59,370 nt of DNA from an uncultured Faecalibacterium sp. (lineage in GTDB: Bacteria > Bacillota > Clostridia > Oscillospirales > Ruminococcaceae), in NCBI GenBank assembly GCA_934512105.1, contig CAKSWQ010000010.1, positions 1 through 59,370 of the forward strand, in the 5' to 3' direction. Both the position numbers and the translations under genes were made by a program. Position 1 is the stretch's first letter, and every line of letters begins with the position of its first letter. Below, piece after piece: positions 34,476 through 43,896 of the stretch. The notes under the pieces were generated by a model that worked only from the letters and a program-made list of their open reading frames with translations, made no database searches and was not told where the DNA came from.

Positions 34476-34631
34476 AGCATCCTCCCTGCGCAGCACACGG
34501 CCGCCTTGCATTCTCTTATAGCATACACCATTTTGCCCACAGGTTCAACTTGATTTTACAGCCCGGTTGCGGTATTATAATATGGTACTGTATTTTGGGG
34601 GCTTTCCTGCACCCTAAGAATGCAGACCCGT

Positions 34632-34708
34632 GTCTCCGTAGCTCAGCTGGATAGAGCGTCCGCCTCCTAAGCGGAAGGCCGTGTGTTCGAATCACATCGG
34701 GGACGCCA
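34632..34708 (+). tRNA. tRNA-Arg(CCT)
   Basis: A full 77-base cloverleaf: acceptor GTCTCCG with CGGGGAC, D arm GCTCAGCTGGATAGAGC, anticodon stem TCCGC/GCGGA with loop CTCCTAA (anticodon CCT, codon AGG), T loop GTTCGAATC and an encoded CCA. Its 3' half from the anticodon loop onward is duplicated at 36489, marking it as an integration site. Confidence 0.97.
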
Positions 34709-34770
34709 GTTTAAAAAATGCGAAGGTCATTTTTCCATGGGAAAGACGATCTTCGCATTTTTTATTTTGA
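34664..34770 (+). repeat. 107-bp direct repeat, left copy (tRNA-Arg 3' half plus terminator)
   Basis: It starts at CTCCTAAG in the anticodon loop, covers the 3' half of tRNA-Arg and its terminator, and ends TTTATTTTGA. The right copy at 36489-36595 is identical at every base. A break in the anticodon loop is typical for tyrosine-recombinase attachment sites. Confidence 0.95.
34713..34763 (+). terminator. Terminator of tRNA-Arg
   Basis: AAAAAATGCGAAG pairs with CTTCGCATTTTTT around a 25-base loop. The copy at 36538-36588 follows the LysR gene on the other strand and can serve it. Confidence 0.75.
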
Positions 34771-34783
34771 ACCTATCACCAAA

Positions 34784-34849
34784 ATTAGCCAGCTAATGCC
34801 ATTAGCAGAATTTTCGGTTCCAGCTAATAAAATCAGGCTTCCAGCTAAT
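34784..34849. repeat. CAGCTAAT repeat cluster, left
   Basis: CAGCTAAT occurs at 34790, 34821 and 34842, with inverted ATTAGC at 34784 and 34801. The longer strings TTCCAGCTAATAA and CTTCCAGCTAATGAA are both repeated exactly in the right cluster. Confidence 0.8.
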
Positions 34850-34906
34850 GAAGCCCCACAAAGCACCTTTGGGACTCTGTTTCCGGCTCTCTGCTAAAAT
34901 TGGTAG

Positions 34907-35158
34907 CCACTTCTCTGTAAATCCATGGTCACAGAGCAGTATGCACATATCTTGGATGATGATCGGCGTCTGAATGCACAGCGTTTTGATGATTTCTTCT
35001 ACCAGCACCAAGGAGCCGAACCCGAAATGCCCCATCAAACAGCGCAGCCCATCCCTGAAAACAGTGCGGTCGATGCCGACGCGGCAGCAGCACTTACCAA
35101 ATTGCTGGCTACCCCCTCTATGGCCGAACTCATAAAAAGCCTTGCAAAGAACTTATAA
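34907..35158 (+). pseudogene. C-terminal remnant of a tyrosine recombinase
   Basis: From the ATG at 34925 the peptide reads MVTEQYAHILDDDRRLNAQR, which matches the end of Tn916/ICE-type integrases, where the Tyr in this segment is the DNA nucleophile. In-frame similarity can be followed back only to about 34907, where a stop codon lies just upstream; the core-binding and RHR parts are gone. It has no ribosome site. It lies beside the left repeat, where an integrase gene is expected. Confidence 0.75.
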
Positions 35159-35173
35159 GCCCTTATACATAAG

Positions 35174-35208
35174 CAGCGGCAGCTTTCCGATTCGGAAAAC
35201 TGCCGCTG
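35174..35208 (+). terminator. Hairpin terminator after the integrase remnant
   Basis: CAGCGGCAG pairs with CTGCCGCTG, with an inner TTTCCGA/TCGGAAA stem, then TATGTTTTT. It separates the remnant from the convergent nuclease gene. Confidence 0.65.
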
Positions 35209-35241
35209 TATGTTTTTAAGAATATCTTGGCTGAATTAAGA

Positions 35242-36057
35242 TCAGGCGGGTTTCTTTGTATCCAGTGCCTTTACTTCTTCAACAGGAAGCTGAACCGACC
35301 GAGCAATTTCTTCATAGGTCATTTTTCCAACTTCTAGCAAAGATTTTGCAATTTCAATCGACTGCTCATGCTTTGTTTCTTCTCTCACTTCTTCAAATGC
35401 TCTGCACATCGTTGCCACTCCCTTCGTATCTTCTTTGAAATAACGCACCCGCTGTGCCAGAACAGGATAGTTCATGTCATCCGGGTTCGTACAGGTAAAG
35501 TCGTGCATCAGCTTTCCCAATGCGGTGTCGTCTTTGATCTGAGAGTTCACATAAATAATATGTGCTTCATCTCCGAAGGATTTTCCCATTTCCTCAATAA
35601 TGCGGTTGATATGGTAAATAGGAAGTCCGCCCCGAAGTACATCGTTCTCTGTGATAAAGATTACATAGGTTTCGTTCAGTGCGTCATACGCATCGCCCTT
35701 TCGGGTGAGATTGGCATCCAGCAGACTGCTGTTATATCTTGCCCTCTTTGCGATGGCTCCGCTGTCACTGCGCTGCACCTCGACATTGTAGGCACGGTTT
35801 TCATGATCCACTGCCAGAATGTCAAGCCGCACGGAACGCCCCTGTATATTGTTCAAGTCATGCTGCCCATGGACTTCTTTGACCTTCAAATCGTCCCGAT
35901 TCAGGATGATCCGGAGCAGGAATTCCGCACACGGCTTATCTTCAAAGACCTTGCTCATAAAGTTATCATCCATGAGCCGAAAATCACGGATACGCCGCAG
36001 ATCTTCCTCATGCTTACGCTCAAAATCAAGGTCTTTTTGCGTTTCGACTTCTGCCAT
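35242..36057 (-). CDS. Rpn-family / PD-(D/E)XK nuclease family transposase-like protein
   Basis: 271 residues. The central part has the PD-(D/E)XK core of PDDEXK_2: VRLDILAVDHENRAYNVEVQ, where Asp and the Glu-x-Gln supply the metal site. Upstream is FMSKVFEDKPCAEFLLRIIL; downstream is the charged ALNETYVIFITENDVLRGG region. The C-terminal ~45 residues (SIEIAKSLLEVGKMTYEEIA) are helical. Rpn proteins cut DNA and promote RecA-independent recombination; some act in phage defence. Its AT-rich codon use differs from neighbours and it is the only full gene in the tRNA-Arg insert. Confidence 0.85.
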   Translation of the reverse strand: MAEVETQKDLDFERKHEEDLRRIRDFRLMDDNFMSKVFEDKPCAEFLLRIILNRDDLKVKEVHGQHDLNNIQGRSVRLDILAVDHENRAYNVEVQRSDSGAIAKRARYNSSLLDANLTRKGDAYDALNETYVIFITENDVLRGGLPIYHINRIIEEMGKSFGDEAHIIYVNSQIKDDTALGKLMHDFTCTNPDDMNYPVLAQRVRYFKEDTKGVATMCRAFEEVREETKHEQSIEIAKSLLEVGKMTYEEIARSVQLPVEEVKALDTKKPA

Positions 36058-36286
36058 CGATTCACCTGCTTTCTGTTCCTTGTCTAAGGTAAGAATACCA
36101 TAAAACCGTTCTTTTTACAAGATGAAGTACTTCCCACCACATAGGTCAGAATCCTTTCATATCGTGTTCTGGCCATGTTCCTATTCCAACTGCGATTTCG
36201 ACATGGTATCATAAATCCAGAAACAGGCTTCAGCTGCTTTTTGCAACTGGTGTTCTTCTGGTGCCTATGAACAGCCACGCGCCTTC

Positions 36287-36357
36287 CAGCTAATGAAAGG
36301 TGAGCGTTGTACAATAGAGCGGTCACTTTTCATTAGCTCAGCTAATTTCCAGCTAAT
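36287..36357. repeat. CAGCTAAT repeat cluster, right
   Basis: CAGCTAAT occurs at 36287, 36339 and 36350, with inverted ATTAGCT at 36332. The order and longer context (CTTCCAGCTAATGAA at 36284, TTCCAGCTAATAA at 36347) mirror the left cluster in the same orientation. Confidence 0.8.
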
Positions 36358-36488
36358 AAGCATCTGTTTACACAGATTAAAAAAGGTTCGATTCTATTTA
36401 CATACGTTGACATCGCAACAAAAAATTCGTTGATATAGAGTAGAATATATTACCCTATTTTGCAATAGGTTTACAGATGCACGGGCTA

Positions 36489-36595
36489 CTCCTAAGCGGA
36501 AGGCCGTGTGTTCGAATCACATCGGGGACGCCAGTTTAAAAAATGCGAAGGTCATTTTTCCATGGGAAAGACGATCTTCGCATTTTTTATTTTGA
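36489..36595 (+). repeat. 107-bp direct repeat, right copy
   Basis: An exact copy of 34664-34770. It lacks the 5' half of the tRNA, so it is not a functional tRNA gene. Upstream of CTCCTAAG the two copies diverge at once (C versus A), which sets the left border of the repeat. Confidence 0.95.
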
Positions 36596-36644
36596 GGCGA
36601 ACATGTATTTTTTCATCGCCTGCTGCCCACCACGGGCACTTTTT

Positions 36645-37526
36645 TCAGAACTTCAACCTTTCCTGCAAAAAGCGGCACAGCAGCTCCGCACAGGCATTAT
36701 GCTGCTTTTTAGGGCGGAGAAATCCGGCACAAATAGGCGGCAGACCGTCTAACACCACATCCCGGACATTGGACATCTGGTTGCTGGAAGATTTCTCGAA
36801 ACGGTTCAGAGAAACACAATTCTGCTCCTGTGTGCGGTAAAGTACTTGATAAAATTGCTCGACCAGCTCCAGCTGCGGGTGCGCGCCGCTTTCCTGCAGC
36901 GCCCGCCACAGCGGCGCAAGGGCATCCGGGGCAAAGCCAGGCACCAGCAGGGTCTGCCCATCCAGCTCTGCCGGAGAAACATGCGTCCGCTCCCAGAGTG
37001 CGTTGCTGCGGGAGACCATAACGGCGGTGGTATGCTGAGATAAAGCGGTACGCGCAAGCCCGGCAGCACAGCCGCCTAAATCCATCACCAGCCCGGCATC
37101 CAGCGCACCGTTTTGCAGCTGCGCCGGGACTTCATCGTTGGTCAGGGAAACAAGCTCCAGCGGGATGCCGGGGTACTGCTGCCGGAACGCTTCCAAAACC
37201 TCTCCCAGATTGGGCAGATAGTCCGGCACCAGAGCTACGCTGATGCCCAGCCGTAGCGGAGCAGACCGGATGTCCTGATAGGCTTGCTCACACAGGGCAT
37301 CGAACTGCTGCACCACCGGCGCAGCCTGTGCCCGGAACCGCTCGCCTTTTTCAGTAAGAGCCAGATGATTGCGGGTGTTGACGAACAGCTTGCCGCAAAG
37401 TTCTTCCTCCAGTGCGGCAATGCTCAGCCGCAAAGCCTGCCGGGACAGGTACATCCGCCCGGCGGTGTGGGTGTAATTCAAATCTTCGCACAGCGCCAGA
37501 AAATAGCGCAGCTGCTGGATGGTCAT
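36645..37526 (-). CDS. LysR-family transcriptional regulator
   Basis: 293 residues. The N-terminal winged helix reads MTIQQLRYFLALCEDLNYTH then GRMYLSRQALRLSIAALEEE, the LysR DNA-binding signature. A two-lobed sensor domain (about 90-290) follows. It is divergent from a Tat-like lipoprotein flavin reductase at 37681, the usual layout for regulator and target, and probably responds to that enzyme's substrate. The 154-base gap should hold both promoters. The right repeat terminator lies 50 bases past its stop. Confidence 0.92.
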   Translation of the reverse strand: MTIQQLRYFLALCEDLNYTHTAGRMYLSRQALRLSIAALEEELCGKLFVNTRNHLALTEKGERFRAQAAPVVQQFDALCEQAYQDIRSAPLRLGISVALVPDYLPNLGEVLEAFRQQYPGIPLELVSLTNDEVPAQLQNGALDAGLVMDLGGCAAGLARTALSQHTTAVMVSRSNALWERTHVSPAELDGQTLLVPGFAPDALAPLWRALQESGAHPQLELVEQFYQVLYRTQEQNCVSLNRFEKSSSNQMSNVRDVVLDGLPPICAGFLRPKKQHNACAELLCRFLQERLKF

Positions 37527-37680
37527 GGTGTGCTCCTTTTTGCAAAACGCAAGTTTTACTTGATACTTATAGGGATATTATAACTCCTTTTTCTTTTCCT
37601 GTAAATGTGATAATTTTAACAAGAACGACATGGAAGATTTGTCGATACGAAGGATAAAGCAAGAAAAGGAAGGAATTATT

Positions 37681-39666
37681 ATGGAAAAGATCTCCCGCAA
37701 AGGATTTCTGAAGATCGCAGCCGCTGCTGCCATGAGCGGCGTGACCGCTGCCGGTCTGGCTGCCTGCAATGCAGCCAGCAGCGCCTCCGGCGCTTCCAGC
37801 GCAGCCGGCATCTACACTCCCGGCACCTACACCGCTACTGCCAAGGGCATGAGCGAGATCACCGCCACCGTCACCTTTGACGCCAACACCATCACCAAGG
37901 TGGAGCTGGATCTCTCCGGCGAGACCGAGAGCATCGGCGGTGCTGCCAAGGACAAGCTGATCGAGCAGATCATGAACGCCCAGACCAGTCAGATCGACGG
38001 CGTGACCGGTGCCACCGTCACCAGCAAGGCCGTGCAGAACGCTGTGGCAGACTGCATCCAGCAGGCCAGCGGTGGTGCCATTAACCCTGCACAGCAGTCC
38101 ACCGAGGAGGCTTCCTCCTCCGCCGACTGGCTGGGTGAGGCACCGGAGATCGCCGAGAGCGATATTAAGCAGACTGTGGACTGCGATGTTCTGGTGGTGG
38201 GTGCCGGTTCTTCCGGTACCTTTGCGGCTGCTGCTGCCGCCGAGGCTGGTGCCAAGACCATCCTCATCGAGAAGTTTGGTCACGATATGGCCAGCGGCAT
38301 CCGGGATACGCTGGCAGCCTGCGGCTCCAAGCAGCAGCAGGAGGACGGCGATGACGTGAGCAAGAAGGACGCCGTGCGCTACCTGTGCAACTGGAGTCAG
38401 GGCTACACCCGCCGCAGTCTGGCACAGGTCTGGGCTGATAAGAGCGGCGAGACCATGGACTGGTTCACGGATGTTCTAGCCGAAAGCGGCATCGACTTCC
38501 GCCACGAGATCGACGAAAAGCACGAGGGCGACAATTACGAGGTTCTGGATGTGGGCCACAGCACCCAGTATGGCGAGGAATACAGCGAGCAGCTGACCAT
38601 GGATGCCGTGCTCAAGCACGCCGAGGCCGATGGTCTGGAGGTGCAGTACGAGATCACCATGGTCAAGCTGGAAAAGGACGGCGACCGTGTGACCGGCCTC
38701 ATCGCCAAGAATGCCAGCGATGAGTATGTGCGCTACAACGCCTCCAAGGGCGTCATCCTTGCCTGCGGCGGCTACAGCGGAAACGACGCCATGATGAACG
38801 CCTTGCAGCCCCAGAGCGTGGAGCAGACCTGCATCAACTACTCCAAGCCCGGCGCAAAGGGTGACGGAATCAAGGCGTGCCTGTGGGCTGGTGCCATCAT
38901 GGATACCACCCACACCTCCATGATCTTCGACCGCGGTGCCATCAAGCCGGACCAGACCGGCGAGTACGGCAAGGCCAGCGATGGTGCGCTGTTCTGGATG
39001 GGCAGCCAGCCGTTCCTGAAGGTGAACCTGAACGGTGAGCGTTTCATGAACGAGTATATGCCCTACGATCTGGTGCTGCACGCTGCCGCCAGCCAGCCCT
39101 ACCACACCTACTGCACCGTGTGGGACAGCAAGTATGCCGAGGACTGCGAAAAGTTTGCTACCCACGGCTGCAGCCGTCTGTACCCCCATGTCAACGGTAC
39201 AAACCCGGTGTTCCCCATGGGCTATGTGCAGGCTATGAACGCCGACCTGCAGGATCAGGGCTACATTGTGGAGGCCGACACCATCGAGGAGCTGGCCGAC
39301 AAGCTGGGTCTGCCGAAGGAGACCTTTACCGCTACGGTGGACCATTACAATGAGCTGGCCGCCAAGGGCGAGGATGAGGACTTCGGCAAGGAGAGCTACC
39401 GCCTCTCCACCCTGAGCGAGGCACCCTTCTACGGTGTCCGTCAGGCCGGTGGCTACCTGATCTGCACAATGGACGGCATCCAGATCGATGACAATATGCA
39501 CGCCATCAATCATGACTTCAAGGCCATTCCCGGTCTGTATGTCATCGGTGACATGAGCGGCAACTACTTCTCTGGCAGCTATCCCTGCCTGATGGCAGGT
39601 GCCGCCGCAGGCCGCAGCGCCACCTTTGGCCGCCTTGCCGGTCAGAACGCTGCCGCAGGTATCTGA
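37681..39666 (+). CDS. Exported FMN/FAD flavoprotein reductase (fumarate-reductase-like)
   Basis: 661 residues. The signal peptide has SRKGFLK and the lipobox LAAC, so Cys29 is the probable anchor. An FMN-binding domain (about 44-130) carries the flavinylation motif DGVTGATVT, with Thr112 the likely site of covalent FMN added by ApbE. The FAD domain starts DVLVVGAGSSGTFAAAAA (170-187) and ends GDMSGNYFSGSYPCLMAGAA. No haem motif is present. Relatives reduce fumarate, urocanate, cinnamates and similar acceptors at the cell surface. The substrate is unknown; the divergent LysR suggests induction by it. No apbE is nearby. Confidence 0.88.
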   Translation: MEKISRKGFLKIAAAAAMSGVTAAGLAACNAASSASGASSAAGIYTPGTYTATAKGMSEITATVTFDANTITKVELDLSGETESIGGAAKDKLIEQIMNAQTSQIDGVTGATVTSKAVQNAVADCIQQASGGAINPAQQSTEEASSSADWLGEAPEIAESDIKQTVDCDVLVVGAGSSGTFAAAAAAEAGAKTILIEKFGHDMASGIRDTLAACGSKQQQEDGDDVSKKDAVRYLCNWSQGYTRRSLAQVWADKSGETMDWFTDVLAESGIDFRHEIDEKHEGDNYEVLDVGHSTQYGEEYSEQLTMDAVLKHAEADGLEVQYEITMVKLEKDGDRVTGLIAKNASDEYVRYNASKGVILACGGYSGNDAMMNALQPQSVEQTCINYSKPGAKGDGIKACLWAGAIMDTTHTSMIFDRGAIKPDQTGEYGKASDGALFWMGSQPFLKVNLNGERFMNEYMPYDLVLHAAASQPYHTYCTVWDSKYAEDCEKFATHGCSRLYPHVNGTNPVFPMGYVQAMNADLQDQGYIVEADTIEELADKLGLPKETFTATVDHYNELAAKGEDEDFGKESYRLSTLSEAPFYGVRQAGGYLICTMDGIQIDDNMHAINHDFKAIPGLYVIGDMSGNYFSGSYPCLMAGAAAGRSATFGRLAGQNAAAGI

Positions 39667-39707
39667 TTAAAACGTTTTCCTTCTCTTCCCTTCTATATAT
39701 CTGCACC

Positions 39708-39745
39708 AGAAAAGCCGCTCCGGGTCTAGCCGGGGCGGCTTTTCT
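39708..39745 (+). terminator. Intrinsic terminator after the flavoprotein gene
   Basis: AGAAAAGCCGCTCCGG pairs with CCGGGGCGGCTTTTCT around 6 bases. It lies between convergent genes and may serve both strands. Confidence 0.8.
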
Positions 39746-39790
39746 GATGGCATTGAAAAAAGAACCGTATTCTCAGGCGTGAAAAAACGC

Positions 39791-40543
39791 TCACTGCCCT
39801 TCTTTTCCGTTCGGGTGCTCGTCCTTTTCTAAAACAAGATCCATGAGGTATTCAAAGGTGATGAGGACGCGCGCATAGAAATAGTTGGCGGTAAGGTTGC
39901 GGTCGTCCAACATCTTGTCGTCCAGCAGCACAAAGGCGGGGTCTGCACAGCGGGCGATGGGAGAATTGTCGGCACCCACAAAGGCAATGATGCTCCGGTG
40001 CTGTGCAAAGGAGTCCTGCACCGGCTTCAGGATGGTATCGGTCTTTCCGCTTTTGCTGATGGCAATGACCAGCCCGGCGTTCAATGCGCCGCTTTCGTAG
40101 ACTTCGTAGCTGTTGGAGCCGATGGCGCAGTAGCCCAGAACCAGCAGCTTCCGTACCAGAAATTCCTGCAAAGGGGCACAGAAGCCGGTGCCGGTCACAA
40201 GGATGGGCTTTTGCCGGTTTTCGTGGAGCAGCTCCACAAAGCGGTGCATCTTTTCCTCGGGGATGTCCCCAATAAAGGCGGTGATGTCGGAGGCATGGTT
40301 TTTGTTGTCGATCTCGTTCTGGATCAGAAAACCGATGCGATAGATCATATCGGTGTAGCCGGTATAACCCATCTTTTTGCTCAGCCGGATCACCGCAGCC
40401 GGGGAGGTGTAGTTTTGTGCTGCAAACTCCCGCACGCTGCACTGACCGCCGTTTTTGGCAGTTTCCAGCACCGCCTGCAAAAGCTGCTGCTCGTTGGCAT
40501 TCAGATGGTACTGATCTGCCAGTTTGTAAAGGTCACGTTTCAT
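39791..40543 (-). CDS. RpiR/MurR-family transcriptional regulator
   Basis: 250 residues from the ATG at 40543, which has GGAG 6 bases upstream; the longer frame to 40606 has no ribosome site. Residues about 1-77 form the HTH_6 domain (SVREFAAQNYTSPAAVIRLS). Residues about 100-230 form a SIS sugar-phosphate isomerase-like sensor (ILVTGTGFCAPLQEFL, GLVIAISKSGKTDTILKP). It is divergent from an alpha-glucoside PTS operon and probably controls it in response to a sugar phosphate. A perfect palindrome lies in the shared upstream region. Confidence 0.93.
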   Translation of the reverse strand: MKRDLYKLADQYHLNANEQQLLQAVLETAKNGGQCSVREFAAQNYTSPAAVIRLSKKMGYTGYTDMIYRIGFLIQNEIDNKNHASDITAFIGDIPEEKMHRFVELLHENRQKPILVTGTGFCAPLQEFLVRKLLVLGYCAIGSNSYEVYESGALNAGLVIAISKSGKTDTILKPVQDSFAQHRSIIAFVGADNSPIARCADPAFVLLDDKMLDDRNLTANYFYARVLITFEYLMDLVLEKDEHPNGKEGQ

Positions 40544-40646
40544 ATTTTGCTCCAATTTCCGAATCAAAGAATGCCTTTCTTTTTCGAAGTATACGCTGAA
40601 TCGCATGTTTTGTCAATATACATTTCGATGTATCCAACATAAAAGT

Positions 40647-40658
40647 GAAACATGTTTC
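40647..40658. promoter_or_regulatory. Palindrome GAAACATGTTTC, candidate RpiR operator
   Basis: A perfect 12-base palindrome inside GTGAAACATGTTTCGGC lies between the divergent rpiR and PTS genes. Related CGAAAC strings occur at about 40733 and 40755. A GAAA/TTTC dyad fits RpiR-type sites. Assignment rests on position. Confidence 0.5.
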
Positions 40659-40717
40659 GGCTTTTGAGAACAAGTTCAAAAACAGTCCAAATCGGTAGAT
40701 TTTTTTGTGCAGAGTGA

Positions 40718-40723
40718 TATAAT
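40718..40723 (+). promoter_or_regulatory. -10 element of the PTS operon
   Basis: TATAAT lies 82 bases before the PTS start. No good -35 is at the normal distance, which fits an activated or tightly regulated promoter. Confidence 0.5.
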
Positions 40724-40804
40724 CAAGCCATCGAAACGGAAAGGTGCACCCCCGAAACGAAGAGAATTTGAAAAGAGAGATCATGGAACGTTAGGAGAAC
40801 ACCA

Positions 40805-42400
40805 ATGAAACAAAAAGTTATGGATGCTATGCAGAGCTTCTCCAAAGCTCTGATGGGCCCCGTTCTGTTCCTGCCCATTGCGGGTATGCTGCAGGCGATT
40901 TCTTCGGTGATGAGCAACACAGCACTGGTGACAGAGGGCGGTGTTGTCTGGACCCTCGGCAAATTCATCAATGGCGGCGTTGGCGCAGTCATTGGCAATC
41001 TGGGAATCCTGTTCTGCGTGGGCATTGCAATGAGCCTTGCCAAAAAGCGCAAGGCAGACGCGGCATTTCTGGCACTGGTCAGCTATCTGGTCTGGCTGGC
41101 AGCAAATGCCCGCTGGCTGGATGTGGCAGGGTTGACCATCGCCGGTGATACGGCAGGCGCTTTGTACGGCACCGGTCAGACCATCTGCCTCGGCTACCAC
41201 GTTACCGACATGGGCGTATTTCTGGGCATGATCCTTGGCGTGGTGGTGGCACTGGTCCACAACCGCTTCATCGACACCGAGTTTGAAGGTGCCATGGCGA
41301 TGTACGGCAACAGCAAGTTCGTCTTTGTGGTGCTGCTGCCCATCGTTCTGGTCATGGCAGTGGTTGCCAGCTACGTCTGGCCTGTGGCTGCGGCGGGCAT
41401 CAACGCCCTGACCGGTGTCATGGCAAGTGCAGGCGCATTCGGCGTGTTCCTGTACGGCTTCCTGAACCGCGTGCTGATCCCCACGGGTCTGCATCATCTG
41501 GTCTGGTCGCCCTTCCTCTACTCTGCACTGGGCGACAGCATGATCATCGGCGGCGAGCAGATCGTCGGCGCAAAGCCTGTGTTCCTTGCCCTGCTCAGTG
41601 ACCCCAGCGTTGCAATGATGCGGGATTCCGCACGTTTTCTGACCTACGGTCTGATGAAGACCTTCGGCGTGATCGGCGTGGCAATGGCCTTTATCTCCAC
41701 TGCAAAGAAGGAGAAGAAGGCTGCCACCAAGGCACAGATCATCCCGGCAACCCTTACCGCCTGTCTGGTAGGCGTGACCGAGCCGCTGGAGTTCACCTTC
41801 CTGTTTGCAGCCCCTGCGCTGTGGCTGGTGTACTCGGTTCTGGACGGTCTGTTCCAGATGATCGTTTACCTTGTGGGTATCCGGGTCTGCGCCACCAACG
41901 GCATCATCGATTTTCTGGTGCTGAACCTGCCCGCAGGCATCGGCCGCACCCACTGGCCGCTGTATGTGGTGGTGGGTCTGGTGGAGATCGTGGTGATGTA
42001 CCTCGTTTTCCGCTTCCTCATCGTGAAGATGAACCTCAAGACCCCCGGCCGTGAGGACGGCGAGGAAGTTACCGACCTTGCCGCAAACGCTGCTGCCGTC
42101 AAGCAGCAGATCCGCAGCGGCGCAGCCGAAAAGACTGCCGCCAACGCAGACGATGCACAGACCGCAGCCCGGATCGTGGAAGGACTGGGCGGTGCAGAGA
42201 ACATCCTGAACACCGACAACTGCATGACCCGTCTGCGGGTGCAGGTCAAGGATGCCGCTCTGGTCAAGGACAAGGAGTGGTTCAAGCCCACCGGCTCCGC
42301 AGGTCTTGTGGTAAAGGGCAACAACATCCAGATCATTTATGGCCCCAAAGTGGGAAAGATGCGTGCCATCGTGGACAGCCACCTTGGCCGCGCAGAATAA
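40805..42400 (+). CDS. PTS alpha-glucoside transporter EIICB
   Basis: 531 residues. The IIC domain (about 1-390) carries FSKALMGPVLFLPIAGMLQA, GLHHLVWSPFLYSALGDS and GVTEPLEFTFLFAAP, the glucose/maltose-superfamily hallmarks. The IIB domain (about 440-531) has the phosphocysteine in NTDNCMTRLRVQV (Cys473) and IIYGPKV. No IIA domain is present, so it must borrow an EIIA from another system. Followed by a 6-phospho-alpha-glucosidase gene, it most likely imports maltose or other alpha-glucosides as 6-phosphates. Confidence 0.92.
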   Translation: MKQKVMDAMQSFSKALMGPVLFLPIAGMLQAISSVMSNTALVTEGGVVWTLGKFINGGVGAVIGNLGILFCVGIAMSLAKKRKADAAFLALVSYLVWLAANARWLDVAGLTIAGDTAGALYGTGQTICLGYHVTDMGVFLGMILGVVVALVHNRFIDTEFEGAMAMYGNSKFVFVVLLPIVLVMAVVASYVWPVAAAGINALTGVMASAGAFGVFLYGFLNRVLIPTGLHHLVWSPFLYSALGDSMIIGGEQIVGAKPVFLALLSDPSVAMMRDSARFLTYGLMKTFGVIGVAMAFISTAKKEKKAATKAQIIPATLTACLVGVTEPLEFTFLFAAPALWLVYSVLDGLFQMIVYLVGIRVCATNGIIDFLVLNLPAGIGRTHWPLYVVVGLVEIVVMYLVFRFLIVKMNLKTPGREDGEEVTDLAANAAAVKQQIRSGAAEKTAANADDAQTAARIVEGLGGAENILNTDNCMTRLRVQVKDAALVKDKEWFKPTGSAGLVVKGNNIQIIYGPKVGKMRAIVDSHLGRAE

Positions 42401-42452
42401 GATATCCGCTTTTATTCATCATACAAAAACATTATAACAGGAGGTTTCCCTT

Positions 42453-43781
42453 ATGAAAACGTTCAAACTGGTCATCGCCGGCGGCGGCAGCACTTACACC
42501 CCCGGCATCGTCAAGAGCCTGCTGGTGCAGAAGGATCGCTTTAAGCTGAATGAGCTGGTGCTCTACGATAACAACGCAGAGCGTCAGGAGGCTGTGGGTG
42601 TCATCGTCCGCCATGTGGTGGAGATGTTCGACCCGGAGCTGAAGCTGACCCTGACCACCGACCCGGAAGTTGCCATGACCGATGCCGACTTCATCTTTGC
42701 ACAGATGCGTGTCGGCCTGTACGCCATGCGTGAGCAGGACGAGAAGATCCCGCTGAAGTACGGCGTTGTTGGTCAGGAGACCTGCGGCCCCGGCGGTCTG
42801 GCTTACGGCCTGCGCACCATCTACCCCATGGTGGAGCTGATCGATTACTGCGAAAAGTACGCAAAGCCCACCTACTGGATCGTCAACTACTCCAACCCCG
42901 CTGCCATCGTGGCAAAGGCGACCTTCCGTCTGCGCCCGAAGGCTCGTATCCTGAACATCTGCGATATGCCTGTCGCCATCGAGCGCAACATGGCCGAGAT
43001 CTTGGAGTGCGACCGTCATGATCTGGAAGTGGACTACTTTGGCCTGAACCACTTCGGCTGGTTCACCAAGGTGCGTCTGAACGGCGAGGATGTGACTGAG
43101 AAACTCAAGAGCTATGTGGCAGAGCACGGCTATATGCCCCAGAACGCCAAGAGTGACGTGCTGCACAGCGATCCGTCCTGGCTGCACACCTATGCAAACG
43201 CCAAGAACATCTGCTCTGCCTTCCACGATTATCTGCCCAACACCTATATGCAGTACTACCTGCTGGGCGATGAAGTTGTAAAGAGCAGCGACCCCAACCA
43301 CACCCGTGCCAACGAGGTCATGGAAGGCCGCGAGAAGCGCATCTTTGATGCTGTGGCAGATTATCGTGCCGGTAAGGACGTGGATCTGACCAAGTTCTTC
43401 GGCGGTGTGCACGGCGAGTTCATCGTGGACGTTGCCATGAGCCTTGCCTTCGACCTGCGCAAGCGTTATCTGGTCATGGTGGAAAACAACGGTGCTGTGG
43501 AGAACCTGCCCTCCGACGCCATGGTGGAGGTCCCCGCTTACATCACCGACCGCGGCCCGGAACCCGTGCGTGTGGGCGAGATCCCGACTTTCTATAAGGG
43601 TCTGATCGAGCAGCAGGAGGCTGTGGAGAAGCTGATCGTGGATGCCGCTGTGGAACACTCCTACGAGAAGGCACTGATGGCCTTTACCCTGTCCAAGACC
43701 GTGCCCAGCCTGCTGGTCGCCAAGAAGATCCTGGACGATATGATCGTTGCCAACAAGGCTTACTGGCCGGAACTGCACTGA
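42453..43781 (+). CDS. 6-phospho-alpha-glucosidase, glycoside hydrolase family 4 (GlvA-like)
   Basis: 442 residues. It starts with an NAD-binding fold, LVIAGGGSTYTPGIVKSLL, and has VGQETCGPGGLAYGLRTI, the metal-binding NICDMP (Cys170) and GLNHFGW (His200). GH4 enzymes use NAD+ and Mn2+ and an oxidation-elimination route. The CDMP motif is the one associated with alpha-glucoside phosphates. It hydrolyses the sugar phosphates delivered by the PTS permease just upstream (52-base gap, AGGAGG). Gene pair and motifs support the call well. Confidence 0.92.
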   Translation: MKTFKLVIAGGGSTYTPGIVKSLLVQKDRFKLNELVLYDNNAERQEAVGVIVRHVVEMFDPELKLTLTTDPEVAMTDADFIFAQMRVGLYAMREQDEKIPLKYGVVGQETCGPGGLAYGLRTIYPMVELIDYCEKYAKPTYWIVNYSNPAAIVAKATFRLRPKARILNICDMPVAIERNMAEILECDRHDLEVDYFGLNHFGWFTKVRLNGEDVTEKLKSYVAEHGYMPQNAKSDVLHSDPSWLHTYANAKNICSAFHDYLPNTYMQYYLLGDEVVKSSDPNHTRANEVMEGREKRIFDAVADYRAGKDVDLTKFFGGVHGEFIVDVAMSLAFDLRKRYLVMVENNGAVENLPSDAMVEVPAYITDRGPEPVRVGEIPTFYKGLIEQQEAVEKLIVDAAVEHSYEKALMAFTLSKTVPSLLVAKKILDDMIVANKAYWPELH

Positions 43782-43832
43782 TCAGTACCTCGTCAGCGGC
43801 AGATACCGGACAACTGAGCCCATAAAACATTG

Positions 43833-43881
43833 AACGCCTCCCCGGCATTCCTTCCAAAAAGGATGCCGGGGAGGCGTTTTT
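43833..43881 (+). terminator. Intrinsic terminator of the alpha-glucoside operon
   Basis: AACGCCTCCCCGGCATCC-type stem (AACGCCTCCCCGGCAT with ATGCCGGGGAGGCGTT) and a trailing TTTTT, placed between convergent genes. Confidence 0.9.
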
Positions 43882-43896
43882 GTTAAAATATGTCAC

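Follow-up and report, generated by a model that had tools for sequence, protein, structure and literature searches.

The insert next to the tRNA-Arg(CCU) gene in the 59,370-nt stretch of Faecalibacterium DNA analyzed here (the window) is very probably a CIME (cis-mobilizable element) formed by internal deletion from a far larger element capable of self-transfer, an ICE whose tyrosine recombinase targets the tRNA-Arg(CCU) anticodon loop in this genus. We favor this reading because the insert has attachment ends on either side, each with arm-like repeats, and an integrase stump fused to the left one, and because a nuclease gene adjoins its right end and like ends in a relative bound an 80-kb interval containing an integrase and conjugation genes. 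From left to right, the insert consists of a tRNA 3′ half with a terminator, a left end with three CCAGCTAAT sites, the integrase stump, a hairpin, a nuclease gene on the minus strand, a right end with further sites, the core, and a second tRNA 3′ half with a terminator. The initial annotation had proposed a cargo-only satellite moved by the integrase of another element. This holds insofar as the unit has no integrase and keeps both ends, so that only a helper could move it; as to origin it does not hold, since the insert appears not to be purpose-built but to descend from an ICE whose body is gone and whose integrase gene is reduced to its last 77 codons.

The observed arrangement probably arose when a nuclease-carrying ICE integrated at CTCCTAAG, with the tRNA rebuilt from the ICE's own 3′ half and terminator, and an illegitimate deletion at a common ATG took out the sequence from the left end up to integrase codon 387. 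The distal 3′ half with its element-type terminator would be a remnant of a previous element that had occupied this site, and the unit could still be excised, alone or together with a neighboring ICE, given a related integrase.

The tRNA gene, the repeat and the recombination core

Positions 34664–34770 and 36489–36595 are identical at 107/107 bases with a spacing of 1,825, which confirms the exact duplication of the tRNA-Arg(CCU) 3′ half and terminator reported in the initial annotation and rules out a chance repeat. As ARAGORN places the tRNA at 34632–34708 (plus strand; Rfam RF00005, 65.2 bits), the repeat and the anticodon loop (CTCCTAA) share their first base, in agreement with the reported start in this loop. 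The tRNA is intact at the left junction and is composed of a host 5′ half and an element-side 3′ half. The host flank to its left matches genomes G001 and G030 at 94% identity, and this match ends at 34671. A consensus scan of the region upstream identified host-derived promoter-like sites of the tRNA gene at 34550–34583 (plus strand; TTGATT-17-TATTAT and an overlapping site) with 9/12 consensus matches, although the excess of such sites in the region is weak (7 found vs. 3.0 expected). The left copy of the repeat (34664–34770, plus strand) includes a terminator hairpin carried by the left end of the element (34712–34764, plus strand; -28.6 kcal/mol, z = -8.45), which is common to all 12 aligned left-end sequences, counting that of the window. 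The insert thereby preserves both the tRNA and its termination, as had been suggested.

The 107-bp repeat had been described as att-like. Its two copies are indeed attachment-site copies, but comparison shows the recombination core to be only 8 bp long. This core, CTCCTAAG, comprises the anticodon loop plus one base and is found in the window only at the two core positions, 34664–34671 on the left and 36489–36496 on the right (both plus strand). We aligned ten right ends, these being the copies that retain the core (G004 and G009, in which it is lost, were left out). All ten were identical at ACTCCTAAG and had the same core, and 3′ of the core they continued into five different tRNA 3′ halves, contig MT835957 being among the copies compared. 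Because the right ends are constant up to CTCCTAAG and then diverge into five 3′ halves, we consider these 8 bp, and not the 107 bp, to be the core.

The additional length of the repeat apparently reflects element-type sequence in the left as well as in the distal copy. A different terminator, the native one, follows the displaced 3′ half in G030 and G001. In the distal copy of the window (36489–36595, plus strand), by contrast, the displaced 3′ half is followed by the element-type terminator. We therefore read the distal copy as a stump derived from the left end of an earlier element, which apparently left its terminator there. The equivalent distal copy in G010 still continues into left-end sequence. 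The two copies are identical within the window, match at 107/108 positions within G010, and are about 94% identical between the window and G010; this near-identity inside each genome suggests a recent origin or gene conversion.

Composition and end sequences of the insert

The insert proper (34771–36488) has a G+C content of 44.9%, compared to 59.8% for the window and 58.3% and 56.7% for the flanks of approximately 5 kb on its left and right, in agreement with the earlier remark that it is richer in AT than its surroundings. The motif CCAGCTAAT, on which the initial annotation did not remark, occurs at five sites in the window, all of them inside the insert and near both of its ends, where 0.41 would be expected; none of 100 shuffled sequences reached five. 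Three putative integrase arm sites (34789–34797, 34820–34828, and 34841–34849, all on the plus strand) lie in the 154-bp left end (34771–34924, plus strand). At the right end, a putative arm site at 36286–36294 (plus strand) is followed by a cluster of arm-like sites at 36331–36357, consisting of one inverted ATTAGCT and two direct CAGCTAAT, and by the remainder of the right end, which extends to a CTA ahead of the core (36358–36488, plus strand). The left end was matched in all 11 genomes searched, which had been preselected from earlier hits, with identities of 74–99% and some of the matches being partial. Across the ten aligned right ends, the arm columns were conserved above random blocks, only 12 of 10,000 being as good. 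Conservation of the left-end arm columns was not significantly above random blocks (641 of 10,000), and we dropped the claim of significance for these sites.

Four of the ten ORFs of at least 50 aa within 34718–36326 were scanned against Pfam, and the nuclease alone was recognized. An additional RNA gene was rejected on the basis of Rfam, in which only the tRNA was found. We also rejected a prophage origin, since among 20 of 44 phage-collection matches listed all were tRNA-sized except for larger matches to three human-faecal contigs, and a plasmid origin, since among 20 of 36 matches listed only 3–4% of the query was covered, in the tRNA region. Searches with the right-end pattern returned 0 contigs from IMG/VR and seven stretches across genome contigs, all of them from Faecalibacterium.

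The integrase stump and the deletion junction

The insert had been said to carry one full gene, a nuclease, and no full integrase. This is correct, and we found in addition a 77-aa C-terminal integrase stump at 34925–35158 (plus strand), which is identical at 74/77 positions to residues 387–463 of an intact 463-aa tyrosine integrase of genome G029 (L045:10308–11699). The intact protein contains PF00589 and PF14659; the stump by itself had no Pfam or NCBIfam match. The position of Tyr392, which we take to be the catalytic tyrosine, is retained in the stump. The deletion junction is an ATG at 34925–34927 (plus strand) that is common to the left end of the element and to integrase codon 387. In intact relatives, the left end runs on past the position of this junction and the integrase is located at the opposite, right end. 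A 321-bp junction query matched 12 of the 31 genus genomes, with its left and right parts at separate places; no match crossed the exact junction in any of the 31, and the junction pattern was found in 0 IMG/VR contigs and in 0/94 of the loci collected. Judging from these comparisons, the stump is in all likelihood a deletion scar, and the insert is a unit without an integrase, its integrase gene reduced to the last 77 codons and both of its ends kept. Between the stump and the nuclease gene there is a hairpin (35162–35220, z -5.56), possibly a terminator.

The Rpn-type nuclease

The sole full-length recognized gene of the insert, at 35242–36057 on the minus strand, is a cargo gene encoding an Rpn-type PD-(D/E)XK nuclease of 271 aa. 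It matched PF12784 (2.2e-10) and NCBIfam TIGR01784 (5.5e-18), the latter named "Rpn family recombination-promoting nuclease/putative transposase". A role in a known defense system was considered and rejected, as there was no PADLOC match. Values of dN/dS were 0.044, 0.036, and 0.042 in comparisons with G010, G004, and contig MT835957 (252 codons for the last), 0.122 with G009, and 0.205 over the fragment present in G018. These ratios indicate that the nuclease is under strong purifying selection. The slot between the integrase and the right end is variable, being occupied by other sequence in G030, G001, and the ICE of G010, and by a nuclease C-terminal stump alone in G029 and G013.

Intact relatives and other deletion derivatives

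The genus search comprised 31 genomes, and loci of at most 20 kb were extracted at 20 places. In 20 of the 31 genomes there was a match to the integrase at E <= 1e-30. Apart from the query itself (G029), six genomes had a full-length integrase of 92–95% identity and G028 had an altered copy. Upstream of the G029 integrase, L045:11699–14505 encodes two HTH_17 proteins, a DUF6551 protein, and a PemK/MazF-like toxin. In G030 (presumably I4-1-79), the attL core at about 980.6 kb and the attR core at about 900.6 kb are approximately 80 kb apart, and the interval between these ends, which may represent one element or several, contains an integrase, a relaxase, and TraG.

We identified four deletion derivatives (those in the window, G010, G018, and G009), and their breakpoints are all different: in G010 the integrase gene is joined at 34974, in G018 the join follows the integrase stop codon at about 35164, and in G009 (F. 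hattorii) it lies at 35237. G010 (presumably APC923/51-1) carries a tandem of an intact integrase followed directly by a mini-element with a similar right end. This mini-element is a 96% relative of most of the body of the window insert with a different left breakpoint, the partner of which was absent from the four ICE loci checked. The right core is gone in G018 and G009, as well as in G004 (L062:900–1300), which kept the integrase and the nuclease and apparently lost the core via recombination between arm-like repeats. The initial annotation had called for a comparison across strains in search of empty sites. Carried out between species only, this comparison gave no locus among those examined in which both native flanks of the tRNA are present and the insert is lacking. 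Since the window junction is absent from 31/31 genomes and the G010 breakpoint differs from it, separate deletions within one ICE lineage seem a better description than one traveling 1.8-kb unit.

Alternative explanations and retained mobility

Identical copies, near-identical in G010 too, are what one would see after a recent duplication or gene conversion, and they could stem from a tandem duplication of the tRNA 3′ half that arose locally and had nothing to do with integration. We regard this as extremely improbable, because CTCCTAAG marks the exact boundary and the right end upstream of the distal copy is common to 10/10 aligned copies that carry five 3′ halves; the doubt raised on this point in the initial annotation is thereby settled in favor of integration. 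The possibility of a cargo-only satellite, meaning a 1.8-kb unit that is under selection and relies in trans on the integrase of an ICE to spread, gains from the intact ends and arm-like sites, from the strong conservation of the nuclease, and from the 96% relative behind an intact integrase in G010. It is nevertheless unlikely: the two mini-elements, of the window and G010, differ in their left breakpoints, the window junction was found in none of the 31 genus genomes, in no IMG/VR contig (exact pattern), and in none of the 94 loci, no phage or plasmid record covering at least 80% of the whole insert was found among the matches listed, and the stump has the appearance of a deletion scar.

A reading that overlaps with the CIME origin is that the same deletion derivative is now an immobile fossil in which the nuclease persists for its own reasons. 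We consider this nearly as probable as its opposite. It is consistent with the loss of the right core in G018 and G009, and in G004 apparently by recombination between arm-like sites, with the lack of a known helper in the strain of the window, and with a junction found nowhere else searched. In the window, on the other hand, both cores, both sets of arm sites, and the terminator are intact, and the two 107-bp copies are identical to each other while their closest relatives differ from them by about 4–6%. Returning to the CIME reading, any movement of the window insert is inferred to be helper-driven, and the chances that this copy may still be mobile seem to us about evenly balanced. Against retained mobility, mobile mini-elements explain the different breakpoints, and a junction found nowhere else searched, no better than in-place decay does, and perhaps less well.

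Replacement tRNA-Arg(CCU) cassettes in relatives

In 7/31 genomes the left end opens with a cassette of 237–249 bp (AATTCGGTCAACC...) that ends inside a complete tRNA-Arg(CCU) instead of a 3′ half. Six of these seven genomes retain the host 5′ half as a fragment; in G010 the cassette comes after other sequence. The cassette loci are L033, L039, L041, L042, L044, L047, and L037, all but the last having the host fragment, with up to three stacked. Of the seven genomes that have an intact close integrase (G029 counted), five also carry the cassette, and among these five the integrase and the cassette are on one contig in G030 and G004 only. No consensus promoter was found inside the cassette in a promoter scan. 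When all spacer types are considered, 12 of the 31 genomes have one to three half-tRNA fragments ahead of a complete tRNA-Arg(CCU), and a likely 13th (G020) runs into the end of a contig; the loci of several genomes show other tRNA genes (e.g., L021–L025, L027–L029), and the CCU locus is not covered in all 31. Other types of spacer between the half-tRNA and the complete tRNA-Arg(CCU) were seen in L046, L048, L049, L050, L020, L026, L030, and L077. A more distant integrase of the family is located within about 0.4 kb in G003, G007, G016, and G146, the last belonging to another genus. In four one-contig genomes, the remaining tRNA-Arg matches have the anticodons CCG, TCT, or ACG, and no second CCU gene was therefore seen, although the TCT tRNA could read AGG by wobble.

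Tentatively, then, the ICE family of the window element may largely use tRNA-dependent integration, in which the anticodon loop is cut, a dead 5′ half is left behind, and a complete tRNA-Arg(CCU) is supplied on the cassette. We hold this to be a possibility, somewhat doubtful at present. The hallmarks of such integration are a short core, a tRNA that is not rebuilt, and a cognate tRNA that is supplied. The window insert departs from them in that its tRNA is rebuilt, while the relatives show the corresponding sequence features, a half-tRNA and then a complete tRNA-Arg(CCU). Because the cassette has a second copy of the core, an element excised via this inner core would leave a half-tRNA behind as a scar and would itself lack the cassette, like that of the window. 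If this is the case, past visits could be counted from the stacked scars of several genomes, and the host tRNA-Arg(CCU) would have been repeatedly replaced by foreign versions.

Movement between hosts

The 237-bp cassette is 100% identical in G030, G001, and G013, whereas identity to the window in the TrkH region is 94% for G030 and G001 and 81% for G013. Similarly, the element part of contig MT835957 is 95% identical to the window and its TrkH 79%. As the identity of the cassette or element exceeds that of TrkH in both G013 and MT835957, the ICE family moves between species. MT835957 (L051) is labeled Bacteriophage sp.; it contains TrkH together with an element right end, and for this reason looks like bacterial chromosome.

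Relationship to known elements

The definition and size range of CIMEs are given in PMC5704250 and PMC7563491, and the classical S. salivarius CIMEs are described there as spanning 1.2–13 kb with cargo. The window insert has both attL and attR, with both cores and end sequences present. Its integrase gene is non-functional, only residues 387–463 remaining, and besides the nuclease and antisense frames there is no ORF of relaxase or coupling-protein size that could represent conjugation or mobilization genes. Its origin by deletion from an ICE or IME is indicated by the fusion of the left end to codon 387 and by the relative with a relaxase and TraG. As for movement in cis after accretion, a tandem with an intact integrase was observed in the relative G010 only. 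An IME would have its own integrase and a mobilization protein or oriT, and no integrase or relaxase was recognized in the insert. Like the streptococcal CIMEs as presented in these sources, the insert has kept its attachment sites and lost its integration and transfer genes, and the streptococcal elements form tandems with ICEs, as in G010. It differs from them in its genus, in its location in the anticodon loop of tRNA-Arg(CCU), in having an Rpn-type nuclease as its sole recognized gene, and in its 77-codon integrase stump.

The relatives resemble the mycobacteriophage tRNA-dependent lysogeny outlined for phages such as Fionnbharth (PMC10865867) in that an 8-bp core is shared with attB, the tRNA is broken, and a complete tRNA of the same isoacceptor is brought in. 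According to the same outline, related elements, with related integrases, use either replacement or ordinary reconstitution from the 3′ half; both modes likewise occur among the relatives of the window element. In contrast to the phages, the relatives here have conjugation genes (G030), and in the window insert the tRNA is reconstituted. A non-phage case of tRNA replacement was not recognized among the titles and abstract beginnings covered by our literature search, which is a weak negative. Anticodon-centered sites are reported as common among the Islander tDNA islands (2083/3919; PMC4383910), the ends of which are likewise marked by an intact tRNA and a displaced 3′ fragment. The window insert differs in having no integrase gene and in being shorter than 2 kb, and would on both grounds be rejected by the integrase and length filters that the Islander report describes. 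Low synteny in Faecalibacterium has been tentatively linked to integrative elements in the account of PMC6295017. Among the titles and abstract beginnings listed in our literature search on Faecalibacterium ICEs and tRNA genes, none described the window locus.

The insert itself is a further CIME under the preferred reading, and the ICE family surrounding it is the more surprising part. The locus would be a hot spot for replacement of the host tRNA-Arg(CCU) by conjugative elements, a behavior described for phages in PMC10865867, in a bacterium that is abundant in the human gut. A minimal pair of ends together with autonomous relatives makes cross-mobilization directly testable.

The flanking block

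The left flank matches G030 and G001 (presumably ATCC 27768) up to 34671, and their native right flank corresponds to the window from 43897 onwards; the block at 36596–43896 is therefore extra relative to these two genomes. We infer that the earlier element may have carried it as cargo and since lost its right end. We looked for a third att site close to the right-hand border of the block and found none. The block encodes a LysR regulator, an FAD/FMN-binding protein, an RpiR regulator, a PTS transporter, and a family 4 glycosidase, genes that are absent from the corresponding place in G001 and G030. Part of the block is located on another contig (C15) in G001, and G018 has part of it at 93% identity.
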